This document shows, piece after piece, positions 4,506-32,306 of a DNA stretch of 33,821 nucleotides. A program made the translations under genes and the position numbers. The notes beneath the pieces were generated by a model. It worked only from the letters and a program-made list of their open reading frames with translations. It did not search any database and was not told the DNA's origin. This DNA is from Candidatus Nanopelagicaceae bacterium (GTDB lineage: Bacteria; Actinomycetota; Actinomycetes; Nanopelagicales; Nanopelagicaceae). The stretch's first letter is position 1, and each line of letters starts with the position of its first letter. Location: contig VERH01000011.1 of assembly GCA_018882735.1 (NCBI GenBank), positions 1 to 33,821 of the forward strand, given 5' to 3'.

Positions 4506-6146
<1,641 letters not shown>

Positions 6147-6205: not shown

Positions 6206-7144
6206 ATGCTCGAAGTAGGCAATGAAGCGATAACTGAAACCGTAAATGTCTCAACCACCGTCTGGTTCGTAACCCTCGGAATCGTAAGTTTGGTAATACT
6301 TTTAGACCTTGCCTGGGCGGTCTACCGGAGAAACTCAATAACCTCGCTTCGCGAAGCGGCCTCTTGGACCGCGATTTATGTAAGCGCTGCCATCATCTTC
6401 GGTATCTCGATGCGCAACTGGGATAGCCCAAAAGCAAGTGGTGAGTTCTTCGCCGGTTGGATAACTGAGTATTCGCTCTCAATCGATAATCTCTTCGTCT
6501 TCCTAATCATCCTCACGCGCCTGAAGGTTGAGAAGCAGAAAGAACAGCTAGTTCTATTGCTGGGCATCGTCATGGCGCTAGTTATGCGCGGAATCTTCAT
6601 CATCGTCGGAGCGGCTGTTGTTGAGCGCTTCGTCGCAATCTTCTTCCTCTTTGGCGCAATCCTGCTTTGGACGGCTTATAAGTTGGTCACCGAGGACCCA
6701 GATGAGGATGAGTGGCAAGAAAATCGAATAATCCAAGCCCTCCGTAAACGCGGCTACTCGACTTTTACAATTGCGCTGGTTGCTGTTGGAACCACAGATC
6801 TACTCTTCGCTTTAGATTCAATTCCAGCAATCTTTGGATTAACTCGAGATCCCTACATCGTATTTATGGCAAATGCCTTTGCTCTGATGGGACTTCGACA
6901 GCTCTATTTCTTAGTGGGCATCTTGTTAAAGCGCCTCGTATATCTCTCAAAGGGACTTTCCATAGTGCTCGGATTCATTGGAGTAAAACTTATAATTGAA
7001 GCGCTCCATGGAATCGGGATTCATGACATTGCCGGATTTAAGATTCCGGAAATTCCAATTACCGTTTCTCTCGGTGTCATCATCTCGGCTCTTGCTGTAA
7101 CTACAGTAATTAGCCTTCGGGTTAAACCAGAACCTCTCACTTAA
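6206..7144 (+). CDS. TerC family integral membrane protein
   Basis: Polytopic membrane protein of 312 residues with about eight or nine hydrophobic segments, starting with the one at residues 17-36. Family hallmarks are SLSIDNLFVFLIIL (about residues 90-103) and DLLFALDSIPAIFGLT (about 198-213), whose acidic residues in membrane segments are thought to bind metal ions. TerC proteins are linked to tellurite resistance and, in other bacteria, to manganese export and metalation of exported enzymes; which role applies here cannot be told from sequence. It stands alone between two terminators. Confidence 0.9.
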   Translation: MLEVGNEAITETVNVSTTVWFVTLGIVSLVILLDLAWAVYRRNSITSLREAASWTAIYVSAAIIFGISMRNWDSPKASGEFFAGWITEYSLSIDNLFVFLIILTRLKVEKQKEQLVLLLGIVMALVMRGIFIIVGAAVVERFVAIFFLFGAILLWTAYKLVTEDPDEDEWQENRIIQALRKRGYSTFTIALVAVGTTDLLFALDSIPAIFGLTRDPYIVFMANAFALMGLRQLYFLVGILLKRLVYLSKGLSIVLGFIGVKLIIEALHGIGIHDIAGFKIPEIPITVSLGVIISALAVTTVISLRVKPEPLT

Positions 7145-7230: not shown

Positions 7231-7533
7231 TTACGCAGTAAAGACCCGCGATTGCCGTTGGGCTTTGCTGATGATCTCGAAACGCTCTTCTTCAGTAAGG
7301 CCTCCCCAAATACCGTATGGCTCCTGCACTGCTAGGGCATGTGCTCGGCACTGTGCGAGTACTGGACAGGTTGCGCAGACCGCTTTGGCAGCAACTTCAC
7401 GAGCCTTGCGGCGGGGGCCGCGCTCGCCATCTGGATGGAAGAACATCTCAGTTGGAAGGGATCGGCAAGCACCCTCATACTGCCATTCCCAATTTGCTTC
7501 TACCGGCTTCGGTAAGCGGGTCGTTTCGGACAT
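7231..7533 (-). CDS. whiB3: WhiB-family iron-sulfur transcriptional regulator (WhiB3/WhiD-like)
   Basis: Small [4Fe-4S] protein that partners with the housekeeping sigma factor. Four Cys ligands are at residues 23, 53, 56 and 62 (C-x29-C-x2-C-x5-C), followed by the turn motif GIWGG (74-78) and a basic C-terminus. The stretches FFHPDGERG and AHALAVQEPYGIWGG resemble mycobacterial WhiB3 and streptomycete WhiD, and the neighbourhood near groESL and guaB also matches, so I favour that subfamily. I start it at the ATG 7533 (100 residues): a TATATT box ends 6 nt before it, whereas the TTG at 7548 would place the -10 inside the gene. WhiB3/WhiD proteins sense redox or NO state; the target genes are unknown here. 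Confidence 0.93.
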   Translation of the reverse strand: MSETTRLPKPVEANWEWQYEGACRSLPTEMFFHPDGERGPRRKAREVAAKAVCATCPVLAQCRAHALAVQEPYGIWGGLTEEERFEIISKAQRQSRVFTA

Positions 7534-7568
7534 AGGCGGAATATACAATCGCGCCGTAAGTTGTTCAA
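7534..7568 (-). promoter_or_regulatory. leaderless promoter of the whiB gene
   Basis: On the minus strand TTGAAC (7568-7563) and TATATT (7545-7540) are separated by 17 bp, then 6 nt lead to the ATG at 7533. This is the best-formed of the leaderless promoters in the window. Confidence 0.7.
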
Positions 7569-7619
7569 GTACCTCTATTTCAAGATGCGGGCGAGTCGCG
7601 CTACCCCCACCATTCGTCT

Positions 7620-8574
7620 ATGTCTTCACAAGGGCCTTCTCAAGGGTCTTCTCAAAATAGGGCCCCAGCTGAGGCTGTAACTGAAGCTCTCACGGTCGCC
7701 GCAGTTGCGAGAAGGCTGGGAGTTGCCCCAGCAACGCTTCGAACTTGGGATCGCCGATATGGCCTAGGGCCAACCGATCACAGCTCCGGCGAACACCGTC
7801 GTTACACGGCTGGAGATATTGCCCGGTTAACTCTGATGCGAAAGCTCGTTATCTCAGGGGTCTCCCCAGCAGAAGCAGCGCAGCGCGCCTTGGCATTTGA
7901 TGGCGAGAGCTCGGCTGAAGTTATCTCTTCCACTCTTGCCAAAGAGGTAACGGTTAAAGAAGAGCTAGTTGAAACGGTCCTACGGGCTGCACGTGCATAT
8001 GATCGAAATTTCGTTGAGGAGTTACTCCGTTCTGAAATGCAGATGCGCGGTATCACTAATACCTGGAATGAAGTGATTGTCCCGCTACTTATTCTTCTAG
8101 GTGACGAATGGGCAGATGCTGGTACTGGGATCGAGACCGAACATCTTGTTAGTGAAATCATCAAGCGCTTACTTCAAGAGTGGAATACAACTGTTGTCGA
8201 TCCAATAAATCCTCGCCCGGTATTGCTCGCCTGCATTGGTGAAGAGATGCACTCACTTCCACTTTACGCTCTGGCCGCAGCGCTCTCTGAGCGAAAGATT
8301 CAAGCGCAATTTTTAGGAGCACGCACTCCAATAGAAGCAATTAGCGCAGTCGTAAAACGTTCTGCGCCACCTGCAATTTTCCTCTGGGCACAACTCAACA
8401 AGAATGGCGATCTCACTGCGCTCGAACAGATTCCAAGTATTAGACCAGCTCCTCGAGTTGTAATCGGCGGTCCGGGCTGGGGAGCCCAAACTGCTCTTAA
8501 TAAGGGCTCGTTTCAAAAGAGCGCCGTTCATGTCGATGATTTAGTTGAAGCCTGCGAGGAGATTTTCCGCGCTG

Positions 8575-8585
<11 letters not shown>
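7620..8585 (+). CDS. MerR-type regulator with cobalamin-binding domain (CarH-like)
   Basis: A 321-residue regulator: a polar Ser/Gln tail (1-20), a MerR helix-turn-helix (about 24-90, with RLGVAPATLRTWDRRYGL and GEHRRYTAGD), a helical cap domain (about 105-190), and a Rossmann-like B12-binding domain (about 198-320). The cap carries W164-x9-E174-H175, the adenosylcobalamin-shielding signature of CarH photoreceptors. The B12 site has E-M-H-S-L-P with His211 as probable lower ligand, a variant of E/D-x-H-x-x-G, and the later GG at 283-284. The residue after W164 is Ala, whereas the Thermus CarH post-light ligand His follows the Trp. It probably represses in a B12- or light-dependent way (inference). 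Target unknown; neighbours are whiB (divergent) and guaB. No clear Shine-Dalgarno before ATG 7620; an in-frame stop at 7557 limits upstream extension. Confidence 0.85.
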
Positions 8586-9738
<1,153 letters not shown>

Positions 9739-26150: not shown

Positions 26151-26157
26151 ATTGAAG

Positions 26158-27078
26158 ATGCGCTTACGAATAGCACTACTTGCCTTCTCTCTTCTTCTCC
26201 CACAAGCAGTTGCTGGGGCGCAAGAACGGACTCCTCGAATTGCAGTTGCTTACGACATCGGATTTAAGGGCGATGGTGGCTTCAATGATGCAGTAAGCGA
26301 AGCTCTTGCCCTTGCAAAGAAACGCTTCGATCTTGTTCCGCCCTTTGTTCGGGAAGTACCTACGAGTGGTACCCCAGTCGATCGCCTCTCAAAACTTCGG
26401 TTCTTAGCCAAGAATGGCTACACCTTGATCATCACTATTGGAAGTGGTTATCGGGAAACTGTTCGAAGAGTTTCGATGGAGTACCCAGAAACACAGTTCG
26501 CGCCAATTAACGATAAGACTCTCGGACAACTAAATGTTTCAAATATTTTCTTCAATGAAGTGGAAGCGGCGCGCATTGCAGGAACGATCGCGAGAGCCCG
26601 AAGTAAGACGAAAGTTGTTGCAGTTATCGCGGGAACCGAAGAAGTGAATAGTGCCTTTGCGGCAGCTGCTAATGGCGCTGAAGTTCTAAAGATTCCATTT
26701 AGCGGTGATGTTTCAACTTTGAACGCTTCACTTGGGCGAGCCGATGTTATCTACTCGCTCTGGGATAGAGACGCGAAAGTTTATGAATTTGTAATCAATA
26801 GAACTCCGAGGACGTTCTACATTGCTAGAAATCCAGATCAATACTTTGCTAATTTACAATCTCATCCAAGAGTTATCGCTGTAATTGAGAAGCGGTTAAC
26901 CAAACCAATCTCGCAACTCGTTAGATTGGCGTTAGAAGATCGCGCACTTATCGATGTCATCGACTCTGATCGTGGCATCTATGGAAGAAGTTATGGAGTG
27001 GCTAACGGGGGACTTACCTACAAACTCAAGGAAGGCCAACCTGCCGTTGTGAAAGCTCTAAGAGAGCTCAAAGGATAA
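26158..27078 (+). CDS. BMP-family nucleoside-binding protein (first of two)
   Basis: A periplasmic-binding-like protein of the BMP (PnrA/Med) family, 306 residues. A signal peptide (basic start, Leu-rich core, AVAGA before QERTP) is followed by IAVAYDIGFKGDGGFNDAV, the family's nucleoside-site opening. IITIGSGY, NIFFNEVEAARIAGTIA and the C-terminal IYGRSYGVANGG follow the family pattern. No lipobox Cys is present. Start ATG 26158 or TTG 26152; I prefer the ATG. It precedes a second, longer BMP gene and is only modestly similar to it, so the two may bind different nucleosides (inference). Confidence 0.85.
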   Translation: MRLRIALLAFSLLLPQAVAGAQERTPRIAVAYDIGFKGDGGFNDAVSEALALAKKRFDLVPPFVREVPTSGTPVDRLSKLRFLAKNGYTLIITIGSGYRETVRRVSMEYPETQFAPINDKTLGQLNVSNIFFNEVEAARIAGTIARARSKTKVVAVIAGTEEVNSAFAAAANGAEVLKIPFSGDVSTLNASLGRADVIYSLWDRDAKVYEFVINRTPRTFYIARNPDQYFANLQSHPRVIAVIEKRLTKPISQLVRLALEDRALIDVIDSDRGIYGRSYGVANGGLTYKLKEGQPAVVKALRELKG

Positions 27079-27185
27079 AGCCCGGGTTTAGAGTCCCACC
27101 CCTAAATCTGTGTCCCAAGGCACCAAAAGTGCGACATGAAAAATGGCTGAAACAAGTCGATTAAGCCTCGGTAATGCCTTCCCGA

Positions 27186-27241
27186 TAGGGTGCGCTCACG
27201 CTTCCCCAAACGTACGTACAAACCCCTCGGGAGGAAATAAC
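27186..27241 (+). promoter_or_regulatory. candidate promoter and leader of the second BMP gene
   Basis: A -10-like TAGGGT (27186-27191) lies 50 nt before the start, with a weak -35 (TTAAGC, 27161-27166, 19-bp spacer). The leader contains CGTACGTACA and a strong Shine-Dalgarno GGGAGG (27230-27235) 6 nt before TTG 27242. The intergenic region 27079-27241 holds nothing else I can support. Confidence 0.4.
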
Positions 27242-28258
27242 TTGAAGAAATCAACACGTCTAATCGCTGTAGCGGTTGCGGCTTCACTCTCCGTTCTCGG
27301 AGTAACAGCTCCAGCCTCAGCAAAGACAACTAAGGCATGCCTTGCACTTGATACCGGTGGTGTCGATGACAAGTCATTTAACGCATCTGCATGGGCTGGC
27401 GCGCAGTCTGTTGCAAATAGCTCAACCACAGTCAAGTACTTGGTTGCACAATCAGATGCTGATTACGCACCAAATATCAAGAAGCTTGTAGATGAAGGTT
27501 GCGACATCGTCATCGGTGTTGGCTTCTTGATCGCAGGCGCACTTGCAGATGCTGCAAAGAAGTACCCAAAGACCAATTTCGCAATCGTTGATGGTGGCGG
27601 AGCTGGAACTGCAAATCACAAGGGACTTCTATTTGCAACTAACCAATCATCATTCCTAGCTGGTTACCTCGCTGCTTCTTATACAAAGACTGGCGTTGTA
27701 GCTACCTACGGTGGAATGAATTTCCCAGCAGTTTCTGACTTCATGGATGGATTCGTAAAGGGCGTTGCTCATTACAACAAAGTGAAGAAGAAGAATGTAA
27801 CCGCACTTGGCTGGGATCCAGTCAAGAAGGATGGAACATTCGTTGGAAACTTCTCTGACCAAGCAAAGGCACTCCAGATCTCCAAGCAGTTCGAACTACA
27901 GAAGGCAGATGTAATCTTCCCTGTAGCTGGTGGTCTCGGTGGCGCAACTGCTCAGAACGCAATGACCAGCAAGCAATCAGTCGTTATCTGGGTTGACTCA
28001 GATGGCGTCATTGCTGCTCCACAGTACAAGTCGGTAATCATTACCTCCGTACTTAAGGGCGTTGGAGTCTCTGTTGCACAAGTAATCAGAGATACCCGTT
28101 CCAACAAGTTCTCCAGCACTTCCTACCTAGGAACGCTAAAGAACAAGGGAACTGGACTTGCACCGTTCTATGACTATGACTCAAAGATCTCAACTGCAAC
28201 AAAGAATGAACTAAAGCGTATTCAACTTGCAATCGCTGCCGGTTCACTCAAGATCTAA
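27242..28258 (+). CDS. BMP-family nucleoside-binding protein (second of two)
   Basis: A 338-residue BMP-type solute-binding protein. The N-terminus is a classic signal peptide (MKKSTR, Ala/Val-rich core, cleavage after APASA), then CLALDTGGVDDKSFNASAW, the nucleoside-site opening. VIGVGFLIAGAL, TNQSSFLAGYLAASYTKTG and VIFPVAGGLGGATAQNAM follow. The TTG start is fixed by GGGAGG 6 nt upstream; the longer frame from 27143 has no signal peptide at its end. The first Cys (residue 33) is not in a lipobox, so the protein appears to be a secreted rather than lipid-anchored binding protein. Codon use suggests high expression. A strong terminator follows, allowing more of this subunit than of the transporter. 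Confidence 0.92.
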   Translation: MKKSTRLIAVAVAASLSVLGVTAPASAKTTKACLALDTGGVDDKSFNASAWAGAQSVANSSTTVKYLVAQSDADYAPNIKKLVDEGCDIVIGVGFLIAGALADAAKKYPKTNFAIVDGGGAGTANHKGLLFATNQSSFLAGYLAASYTKTGVVATYGGMNFPAVSDFMDGFVKGVAHYNKVKKKNVTALGWDPVKKDGTFVGNFSDQAKALQISKQFELQKADVIFPVAGGLGGATAQNAMTSKQSVVIWVDSDGVIAAPQYKSVIITSVLKGVGVSVAQVIRDTRSNKFSSTSYLGTLKNKGTGLAPFYDYDSKISTATKNELKRIQLAIAAGSLKI

Positions 28259-28375: not shown

Positions 28376-29884
28376 ATGTCAGTTGAGTTACGCGGCATAA
28401 CGAAGAGTTTCGGCTCCCTAGTCGCAAATGATGCGATTGATTTGAAGGTTGAAGCCGGCCAAATTCACGCCATCTTGGGCGAGAATGGCGCTGGTAAATC
28501 AACCTTGATGAATATTCTCTTTGGACTCTTACAGCCTGATCAAGGCGAAATTCTCATTGAGGGTAAGGCAATACAAGTGAATGAACCGAGCGATGCCCTC
28601 GCTGCTGGAATCGGAATGGTTCACCAGCATTTCATGCTTATCCCAGTCTTTACCGTTGCGGAGAATATTGTCCTTGGGCACGAGAAGATCCGTGGCGTTG
28701 GCTCACTTGACTTGAGAGAAGCTCGCACCCAAATCATGGAGATAGCGAAGCGCTTTAACTTTGAAATAGATCCTGATGCGTTGATTGAAGACCTTCCCGT
28801 TGGAGTACAGCAGCGAGTAGAGATCATCAAAGCGCTTTTCTTCAATGCAAAAATTATTATTCTTGATGAACCCTCTGCCGTTCTAACTCCACAAGAAACT
28901 GACGAACTATTAAATGTGATGCGGGAATTGAAGAAACAGGGCAAATCAATCATCTTTATCACTCATAAACTTCGCGAAGTCCAAGAAGTCGCCGACGAAA
29001 TCACCATCATCAGGCGAGGCAAGGTTGTAGGAAAGGCGAAGCCAACTGCAACTCAAGAAGAATTAGCTTCAATGATGGTGGGTAGACCTGTCGATCTTGA
29101 GGTCACGAAGAAGCCATTTACTCCAGGCAAAGTAATCTTGAAGATTAGCGATTTAAAGGTGACCGATAATCGAGGTCGCGCGCTTGTGAGTGAGATTAAT
29201 TTCGATGTTCACGCCGGCGAGATCCTTGCAGTCGCTGGAGTCCAAGGAAATGGCCAGACGGAGTTAGCGCGTGCAATTTTGAACTTAGAGCCCCATGTAT
29301 ACGGATCAATCACTATTGATGGAAGTGAAATTGTCGGTAGGACGGTAAATGAATCACTTGAATCCGGTATCGCTTTTGTTCCTGAATCGCGCGAGCTGGA
29401 TGGGTTGATTAGCTCATTTAGCATTGCTGAGAATTTGATTCTTGATACATTCCACAGCGCTCCAATATCGAAGTCAGGGATTTTAGATCTAGAGAAGATA
29501 AGGAGTAATGCTGAGGAATATACGAAGCAATTTGATGTTCGACTCCAGAGTATTTCTGATTCAGCATCATCTCTCTCCGGCGGAAACAAGCAGAAAGTCG
29601 TGCTGGCCCGCGAATTAACGCGTCCAGTCAAGTTACTAGTGGCTTCTCAACCAACACGCGGTCTCGATGTAGGCTCAATTGAGTTTGTTCACGAGCGGAT
29701 CCTGGCTGAGCGAGATGCAGGTCGCGCAGTTCTTTTATTTAGCAATGAATTAGATGAAGTTATGGCCTTAGCTGATCGAATCGCCGTTATGTATCACGGC
29801 AGCATCATCGATATCGTAGATCCGAGCGTTACACGTAATGAATTGGGACTCTTGATGGCCGGCGTGAAGGGTAAGACGGCGTGA
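28376..29884 (+). CDS. nucleoside ABC transporter, double ATPase subunit
   Basis: Two fused ABC domains, 502 residues, of the type that works with BMP proteins and two RbsC-like permeases. Domain 1 has Walker A GENGAGKS (35-42), a degenerate signature LPVGVQQRVEI and Walker B IIILDEPSAVLTP. Domain 2 (from about 255) has a degenerate Walker A (VQGNGQTE), an intact signature LSGGNKQKV, and Walker B with Gln in place of the catalytic Glu (VASQPTRGLD). This asymmetry is usual for the family. The stop overlaps the GTG start of the first permease. Confidence 0.93.
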   Translation: MSVELRGITKSFGSLVANDAIDLKVEAGQIHAILGENGAGKSTLMNILFGLLQPDQGEILIEGKAIQVNEPSDALAAGIGMVHQHFMLIPVFTVAENIVLGHEKIRGVGSLDLREARTQIMEIAKRFNFEIDPDALIEDLPVGVQQRVEIIKALFFNAKIIILDEPSAVLTPQETDELLNVMRELKKQGKSIIFITHKLREVQEVADEITIIRRGKVVGKAKPTATQEELASMMVGRPVDLEVTKKPFTPGKVILKISDLKVTDNRGRALVSEINFDVHAGEILAVAGVQGNGQTELARAILNLEPHVYGSITIDGSEIVGRTVNESLESGIAFVPESRELDGLISSFSIAENLILDTFHSAPISKSGILDLEKIRSNAEEYTKQFDVRLQSISDSASSLSGGNKQKVVLARELTRPVKLLVASQPTRGLDVGSIEFVHERILAERDAGRAVLLFSNELDEVMALADRIAVMYHGSIIDIVDPSVTRNELGLLMAGVKGKTA

Positions 29885-31041
29885 AAAGGTTACTTAACGG
29901 GTCGGCGCTACTTCCCATACTTTCATTTGCACTCGCGATGCTTATCGGAGGTTTACTAATTGCATTCTCCGATGCAAAGGTTCTTGCCCTTCGCTCTGAA
30001 CCTTGGGAAATGATTAAAGCCGGCGCTGCCACAGCTTGGAATGCATATGTCGCGCTCTTTGAGGGAGCTTTCTATGATCCTAACTTGGCGCGCCAAGGCG
30101 GTGGCCAAGGCTTCTATCCAATTTCCGAAACCTTAGTTGTTGCCGCACCACTAATTCTTGCCGGTCTTTCAGTAGCTCTTGCTTTCCGTGCTGGACTCTT
30201 CAATATCGGAGCCCAAGGCCAATTTATCTTCGGCGCGATTGGCGCTTCGTATATTGGATTCACCTATGAATTGCCGCCAATTCTTCACATTACCGCTGCC
30301 ATGCTATTTGGCGTATTTATCGCGGGAATCTATGGTGGAATCGTTGGTCTACTTAAAGCAAAGACTGGTGCGCATGAAGTTATCGTCACAATCATGCTCA
30401 ATTATGTTGCTAGCTACTTATTACTTTGGTTGTTGAAGACTGAGGCATTCTTACGCGAAGGGCGAAATGATCCGATTGCCCCAGATATTTTTGAGAGCGC
30501 TCGATTACCAAAGATTTTGGGCAGCGAATTCCGCATCAGCGTAGCGATATTGATCTCGCTTCTCGTTGCTTGGCTGATCGCTTTCTTACTAAACAAAACA
30601 ACCCTTGGTTTTAGATTCCGCGCTGTTGGCGCTAATGCCGCGGCGGCACGAACTGCTGGAATGTCGGTCGCTTTTGTCACCACATCGGTGATGATTGTTG
30701 CCGGCGCTCTCGCAGGATTGGGTGGAGCCTTAAATGTCCTTGGCGGCGAATATGCACTTACTGTGGGAATTGCGGGATCGTTTGGTTTTGATGCAATCAC
30801 CGTTGCGCTACTTGGACGGGCAAAGCCACTCGGAGTTGTTCTCTCCGCCTTCCTCTTTGCATCGCTTCGAGTCGGTGGCCAGATGATGCAGGCAAAGACC
30901 GATACTCCACTTGATCTAGTCCTTGTTATTCAGGCCCTCATAATTCTCTTTATTGCCGCTCCAGCTCTAGTCAAGGCAATCTTTAGATTGAAGAACATAA
31001 ACGCATCCACTGGTATGGCTGCGAAGGGTTGGAATGGATAA
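29881..31041 (+). CDS. nucleoside ABC transporter permease (first)
   Basis: A branched-chain-amino-acid/ribose-type permease (BPD_transp_2 fold), 386 residues with about nine hydrophobic segments. Family stretches are FRAGLFNIGAQGQFIFGAIGA, GAHEVIVTIMLNYVA and FRAVGANAAAARTAGM, the last being the loop that contacts the ATPase. The start is GTG 29881, overlapping the ATPase stop (GTGA), with AAGGG 9 nt upstream. It pairs with the second permease. Confidence 0.92.
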   Translation: MKRLLNGSALLPILSFALAMLIGGLLIAFSDAKVLALRSEPWEMIKAGAATAWNAYVALFEGAFYDPNLARQGGGQGFYPISETLVVAAPLILAGLSVALAFRAGLFNIGAQGQFIFGAIGASYIGFTYELPPILHITAAMLFGVFIAGIYGGIVGLLKAKTGAHEVIVTIMLNYVASYLLLWLLKTEAFLREGRNDPIAPDIFESARLPKILGSEFRISVAILISLLVAWLIAFLLNKTTLGFRFRAVGANAAAARTAGMSVAFVTTSVMIVAGALAGLGGALNVLGGEYALTVGIAGSFGFDAITVALLGRAKPLGVVLSAFLFASLRVGGQMMQAKTDTPLDLVLVIQALIILFIAAPALVKAIFRLKNINASTGMAAKGWNG

Positions 31042-32306
31042 TGGCAAAGATCTCTAATCTAACTCCTGCTCAACGGCGAACTCGACGAGGCATCTATACG
31101 CTCGGATTCTTTACAATCCTTGCGAGCATCCCGTTTATCTTCCTCGCTAAAGATTCAGCAAATGTCACATATGGCTTTGTGCTTCGCGATGAATGGGTAT
31201 TGATTAATGAATGGATCATTAACTCAAGAACAGCTGCAATTATCTTCATTTCACTGGCAGCGTTATCGACAATTGCTTCTTATCTATTTTTTATGAGGGG
31301 AAAGAAAGTTGGAGCCTTCTCCTTCATCGGTGCATTCTCACTACTAATGGCATTTCTCTCTTGGGCAGCCAAAGGAAGCTTTATTCCGCTAACCGGAGTT
31401 TTCCAAGGCGCGTTGTTGCTTGCGGTTCCGCTCATTTTTGGTGCGATGGCGGGCGTTATCTGTGAGCGCTCGGGTGTCATCAATATCGCAATTGAGGGGC
31501 AACTCTTAGCAGCTGCCTTTGCGGCGGGCGTTGTAGCGAGCCTTACCCAGAGCACGACTTGGGGGTTAATCGTTGCTCCATTCGCTGGCGCGCTGATCTC
31601 TTTGATCTTGGCAACTTTCGCTATCAAATACCAGATTGACCAAGTCATTCTTGGATTCGTTATCAACGTTCTAGTAATTGGCCTTACTGGATTCTTATAT
31701 AAGAAATTACTAATTCCATATCAAGATACTTGGAATAGTGGACCAATCCTCTCGCCCATAGAAATTCCATTACTTTCTAAATTACCGATTATTGGCCCAG
31801 TCCTATTCAAACAGACCATCATCGTTTACTTAATGTATTTAGCAGTTGGACTGACTCATTACTACTTGTTTAAGACTCGTTGGGGACTTCGTACCCGCGC
31901 GGTCGGTGAACATCCAACAGCTGCGGACTCTGTCGGTATAAAAGTCAATGCGCTTCGCTTTAGAAATGTGATCATTGCAGGCGCAGTCGCAGGACTCGGT
32001 GGCGCTTACTTCACTGTTGGCGCAGTCGGAATGTTTGGTAAAGAAATGACTGCAGGTAAAGGCTTTATTGCCCTCGCTGCCCTTATTTTTGGAAGGTGGA
32101 GTCCAAAGGGCGCAGTCGCCGCGGCTCTACTATTTGGATTTGCTGACAATCTACAAGTCGTACTATCGATTATCGGCACAGCCATCCCAAGTGAATTCCT
32201 ACTTATGGTTCCGTACATTGCAACGATAATTGCGGTATCTGGTTTTGTTGGCAAAGTAAGGGCGCCGGCGGCGGATGGAATTCCTTACACGCGCGGAAGT
32301 CATTAG
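31041..32306 (+). CDS. nucleoside ABC transporter permease (second)
   Basis: A second permease of the same fold, 421 residues from ATG 31041. Extra N-terminal membrane segments precede the core; the core contains ERSGVINIAIEGQLLAAAFAA, YQIDQVILGFVINVL and TRAVGEHPTAADSVGIKVNA (ATPase-contact loop). The start shares one base with the previous stop (TAATG). A TTG at 31029 is in frame, but AAGGG directly abuts it; the spacing for 31041 (12 nt) is long, so the start is uncertain. cdd follows after 12 nt. Confidence 0.92.
   Translation: MAKISNLTPAQRRTRRGIYTLGFFTILASIPFIFLAKDSANVTYGFVLRDEWVLINEWIINSRTAAIIFISLAALSTIASYLFFMRGKKVGAFSFIGAFSLLMAFLSWAAKGSFIPLTGVFQGALLLAVPLIFGAMAGVICERSGVINIAIEGQLLAAAFAAGVVASLTQSTTWGLIVAPFAGALISLILATFAIKYQIDQVILGFVINVLVIGLTGFLYKKLLIPYQDTWNSGPILSPIEIPLLSKLPIIGPVLFKQTIIVYLMYLAVGLTHYYLFKTRWGLRTRAVGEHPTAADSVGIKVNALRFRNVIIAGAVAGLGGAYFTVGAVGMFGKEMTAGKGFIALAALIFGRWSPKGAVAAALLFGFADNLQVVLSIIGTAIPSEFLLMVPYIATIIAVSGFVGKVRAPAADGIPYTRGSH

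Follow-up and report, generated by a model that had tools for sequence, protein, structure and literature searches.

What does a CarH-like regulator sense when it lacks the second (upper) histidine, and which gene does it control? These questions are raised by a MerR-type gene in the window, by which we mean the whole stretch of 33,821 nucleotides that was analyzed. We consider it reasonably probable that this LitR/CarH-type regulator controls expression of the divergent whiB gene by binding a 20-bp dyad in its promoter, with photolysis of adenosylcobalamin (AdoCbl) as the most likely signal. The main new finding is the locus itself, namely the divergent whiB gene and the conserved block in its promoter, which is stronger than the residue changes in the protein.

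The regulator gene and the element in front of it lie at the following positions.

7608 to 7614, plus strand: −10-like CACCATT, 5 nt before the ATG at 7620
7620 to 8585, plus strand: LitR/CarH-type regulator gene, 321 aa, with a MerR helix-turn-helix (25–88), a four-helix cap (117–185) and a B12 Rossmann domain (201–286)

The start codon at 7620 is backed by the −10-like pattern CANNATW, which lies exactly 5 nt 5′ of the start codon in 82 of the 85 family loci that have the pattern, and the gene probably has a leaderless start. The protein has the three-domain LitR/CarH architecture, and all three Pfam models matched over their cut-offs: MerR_1 at 25–88 (E 2.6e-15), B12-binding_2 at 117–185 (E 4.7e-6) and B12-binding at 201–286 (E 6.2e-8). 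To map its residues, we aligned it with the complete Thermus thermophilus CarH (TtCarH; HB27 plasmid pTT27, L295). The alignment pairs W131, H132, E141, H142 and H177 of TtCarH with W164, A165, E174, H175 and H211 of the regulator, and G174, G180 and S222 with E208, P214 and W256; a GGPGW motif follows at 283–287. The two marks of the LitR/CarH family, W-x9-EH and the lower-ligand His, are therefore both present. The residue calls of the preliminary description (W-x9-EH at 164–175, Ala165 after the Trp, His211, and Pro214 in place of Gly) proved exact, and its identification of a CarH-like, B12-type MerR regulator is borne out by the domains, the conserved pocket residues and the fold.

The fold was examined in an AlphaFold2 model built from 26 family sequences (pLDDT 86). 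The nearest solved sequence is T. thermophilus CarH (phmmer E 8e-21), and the model matched full-length CarH with a Foldseek E value of 7e-15. In the VIA comparison of the cobalamin domain, CarH scored Z 19.3 and the photocobilin SasPcob was the top match at Z 19.9. Structural modelling against CarH supports a CarH/LitR-like fold. The regulator shares with T. thermophilus CarH (PDB 5c8d and 3whp; H132A, 8c35) the domain order, the fold and the counterparts of Trp131, Glu141, His142 and His177, but the identity is 28%, His132 is missing, Gly180 is replaced by Pro and Ser222 by Trp. It also falls below CarH proper in the NCBIfam equivalog NF052513 (105 bits against a threshold of over 400). Whereas T. 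thermophilus CarH acts at 11-bp direct repeats at carotenoid genes, the locus studied here has a dyad in the whiB promoter and a groEL/whiB/guaB context.

We then asked how widely the altered residues are distributed. The preliminary description had treated them as special to this protein; they turned out to be clade-wide. All 58 sequences from the family, the Candidatus Nanopelagicaceae, have W164, E174 and H211, and 57 have H175, while position 165, the site of the upper ligand in CarH proper, is occupied by Ala (25), Glu (19), Gln (5), Val (4), Lys (2), Ser (2) or Thr (1) and never by His. A class profile search found relatives in 121 of 247 genomes, representing 60 of 104 genera. In a quick tree, 86 family and class sequences form a group (SH-aLRT 99) apart from TtCarH and from four actinobacterial sequences of the canonical CarH-like type. 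Glu174, His175 and His211 occur in each of these 86 aligned sequences. At position 214, 68 have Pro and 17 have Ala, in contrast to Gly in the canonical proteins; position 256 is Trp in 82, where canonical proteins have Ser or Ala; and an extra Trp occurs at position 287 in 85. Trp164 is replaced in 18 of the 86, so that the adenosyl-stacking residue is not kept in every branch. The regulator has all the hallmarks of the actinobacterial LitR-type clade (HxL[P/A], Trp at the Ser of SxL, G[G/A]PGW and the clade support). As judged from these alignments and the quick tree, the altered residues mark an actinobacterial clade of 86 sequences separate from canonical CarH. One family genome without the regulator (G100, locus L052) has a canonical CarH-like protein, with KHEMG, Ser at the SxL position and Thr at the His132 position.

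Because SAerR contacts the dimethylbenzimidazole (DMB) tail of B12 through its Ser/Thr position and GG motif (PMC9144470), which correspond to position 256 and the GG motif here, the pocket for the nucleotide tail is, by homology to SAerR, remodelled throughout the clade, with Gly to Pro or Ala at 214 and Ser to Trp at 256. The effect of the missing upper ligand can be judged from known proteins. The H132A variant of TtCarH binds AdoCbl as the wild type does, keeps photolysis and is mostly tetrameric after light (PMC10442372). The cobalamin domains of CtMerR and of the photocobilins SasPcob and AbDPcob (8jbs, 8j2x) have Arg, Gln and Tyr, respectively, at the His132 position, and all three are photoreactive (PMC11796333). 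By analogy, the lack of His132 alone is not enough to eliminate photochemistry, and photochemistry differing from that of Thermus CarH is plausible. The photocobilins are more distant relatives of the regulator, with about 19% identity, a bilin domain and no MerR domain. Three of the four elements of the published SignatureFinder light signature (GxxW, EH, GxxH and GxxxP; PMC11796333) are present in the regulator, and in the fourth the Gly of GxxH is Glu208. Adenosyltransferase proved uninformative as an indicator of AdoCbl use, since the enzyme is nearly universal in the genomes examined, including those without the regulator.

Further indications come from relatives of the regulator. Members of the clade of the Streptomyces type carry the altered residues and adjoin genes for an ECF sigma factor, a DNA photolyase and a DUF2867 dehydrogenase, and one such paralogue has as neighbors a prenyl diphosphate synthase gene and a crtI-family desaturase gene that scores 590 bits with TIGR02734 (cut-off 238). 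S. coelicolor LitR is described as a photosensor based on B12, a repressor in the dark that activates litS in light, and the B12 dependence of LitR was seen in S. avermitilis (PMC12705666). S. coelicolor LitR would belong to this clade on the basis of its gene neighborhood. Streptomyces LitR targets sigma factor and carotenoid genes, whereas the predicted target here is whiB.

The tail-pocket changes make the ligand the main doubt about a light switch based on AdoCbl. The leading rival explanation, which we regard as unlikely, keeps the regulator on the whiB promoter but gives it another corrinoid, a tail-less corrinoid or heme as ligand, so that it would sense B12 status or redox. This explanation accommodates the clade-wide replacements of Gly180 and Ser222; in SAerR the Ser/Thr and GG positions touch the DMB tail, and the heme-binding SCHIC domain of AppA has the same fold as the cobalamin domain of the regulator (Z 17.6). 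However, W164, E174 and H175, which face the adenosyl group, are kept, the Streptomyces-type members have light-linked neighbors, and the Trp cap is missing from SCHIC (PMC9144470). It is still less probable that the regulator is independent of any ligand, the cobalamin domain serving only for oligomerization while a partner protein acts as the sensor. CarA and class II LitR provide precedents (PMC9304148, PMC9758184), and the loss of Trp164 from 18 clade members would fit, but a role in oligomerization only would not demand invariant His211, Glu174 and His175 in every clade sequence.

The neighborhood of the regulator contains the following conserved genes.

4512 to 6146, plus strand: groEL, the conserved upstream neighbor
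7231 to 7533, minus strand: whiB, encoding a WhiB-family Fe-S regulator of 100 aa from the ATG at 7533 (PF02467, E 1.8e-24)
8611 to 9738, plus strand: guaB (IMP dehydrogenase), the conserved downstream neighbor, named from sequence and conserved position

The divergence from a WhiB regulator noted in the preliminary description is real, and the link is stronger than first claimed: the regulator is divergent from a WhiB-family gene in all 56 family loci of the clade. The sole family match without whiB is the canonical CarH-like protein of L052. groEL lies upstream and guaB downstream in most family loci where the contig reaches, and the divergent WhiB–MerR pair with groEL and guaB recurs across many other families of the class. 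From its position between groEL and guaB, this WhiB would be of the WhiD/WhiB3 type, which is present in most actinomycetes (PMC4255298). No account of the pair turned up in the set of papers searched for LitR together with WhiB. A gene for a TerC-family membrane protein (window positions 6206–7144) lies between groEL and whiB almost only in loci of genus g1, with L016 as one locus from outside this genus; elsewhere groEL directly adjoins whiB. The GroEL of the window has a His-rich C-terminus, as in GroEL1-type chaperonins.

The DNA between whiB and the regulator gene contains a 26-bp conserved block that covers the whiB promoter and holds a dyad.

7540 to 7568, minus strand: whiB promoter, with −35 TTGAAC (7568–7563), a 17-bp spacer and −10 TATATT (7545–7540)
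7545 to 7564, no strand assigned: candidate operator dyad ACAATC-N8-AGTTGT (consensus ACAAYC-N8-RGTTGT), centered in the spacer of the whiB promoter

The promoter search found 2 promoters against 0.2 in shuffled sequences, and the whiB promoter is conserved in the family. The 20-bp dyad of the window is imperfect at its two inner pairs. Of 150 family loci with the regulator, 149 gave a score of more than 15 bits with a family weight matrix. Among 38 loci of the class with the regulator beside whiB, 24 scored above 5 and 34 exceeded the best of 50 shuffles, while the block was missing from all 21 class WhiB loci that have no regulator beside them. It was also absent from the five family loci in which whiB and guaB remain but the regulator is lost (scores −10 to −41), although the family losses represent only about two independent events and co-deletion of a contiguous stretch could explain part of the co-loss. 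In L230, the dyad retains its promoter-like TACAATCG half, and its other half has degenerated. Genomes lacking the regulator also lack the whiB orthologue in 18 of 24 cases, both genes being absent from genus g2 and several other genomes, and no family locus of the clade has the regulator without whiB. The family co-occurrence, the losses and the class-wide pattern together make the block the best candidate for the operator of the regulator. It is improbable that the block, which does include the −35 and −10 of whiB, serves only as promoter of whiB or as a site of WhiB autoregulation, with the MerR protein acting elsewhere, because conservation is as strong in the 17-bp spacer as in the hexamers, the block vanishes where the MerR gene is lost and whiB stays, and the genome has no other good site.

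We favor the whiB promoter as the predicted target, and the search of the genome itself agrees with this assignment. Allowing up to 3 mismatches, the only operator match that the genome contains is the one at this locus, which suggests a regulator devoted to whiB and perhaps also to its own gene. The idea that matching operators would lie near carotenoid or rhodopsin genes was not supported, as none was seen there in this genome. A second operator match, which seemed to recur in relatives at 3 mismatches, was rejected because it falls within a coding gene flanked by ispH- and ychF-like genes. Rhodopsin was likewise discarded as a partner, because its presence does not track the regulator: rhodopsin is found in genomes of genus g2, which lack the regulator, and is missing from several that have it. 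In two loci of family f26 (L205 and L208), a perfect inverted repeat, AACTTGTTCA...TGAACAAGTT, replaces the block between whiB and the MerR gene, which suggests a re-designed operator. In L202, L203, L207 and L213, a conserved ACTCGCATCGNTTNTGCGTCGTATAGT lies just 5′ of the litR-type start codon and resembles 11-bp direct repeats over a −10.

In the mechanism that we propose, the regulator would carry AdoCbl and sit on the predicted dyad within the whiB promoter in darkness, and light would cleave the Co–C bond of AdoCbl. With no second His, the resulting change would probably be smaller than the monomerization of CarH, and may consist in a switch of the DNA conformation instead of release. 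Repression is favored as the sign of regulation, since a spacer of 17 bp is already the optimum for sigma-70; activation of whiB is also possible, given the dual behavior of LitR. A broader proposal, which we hold only tentatively, is that an ancient light/B12 switch, present class-wide, has direct control over a WhiD/WhiB3-type Fe-S redox regulator. Its cobalamin photochemistry would need no bis-His ligation, and its corrinoid pocket would be remodelled and might exclude the tail.

These results provide very abundant freshwater bacteria with a candidate for a light sensor based on cobalamin; for freshwater actinobacteria of other genera that respond to light, a published study did not establish which sensor is used (PMC8591293). 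They also offer an input to a WhiD/WhiB3-type regulator that is concrete and can be tested, and they delimit a natural clade whose CarH photochemistry has to do without the second His. Elsewhere in the window, two adjacent genes for BMP-type lipoproteins (26152–28258) lie ahead of an ABC transporter (28376–32306), probably for nucleoside uptake.
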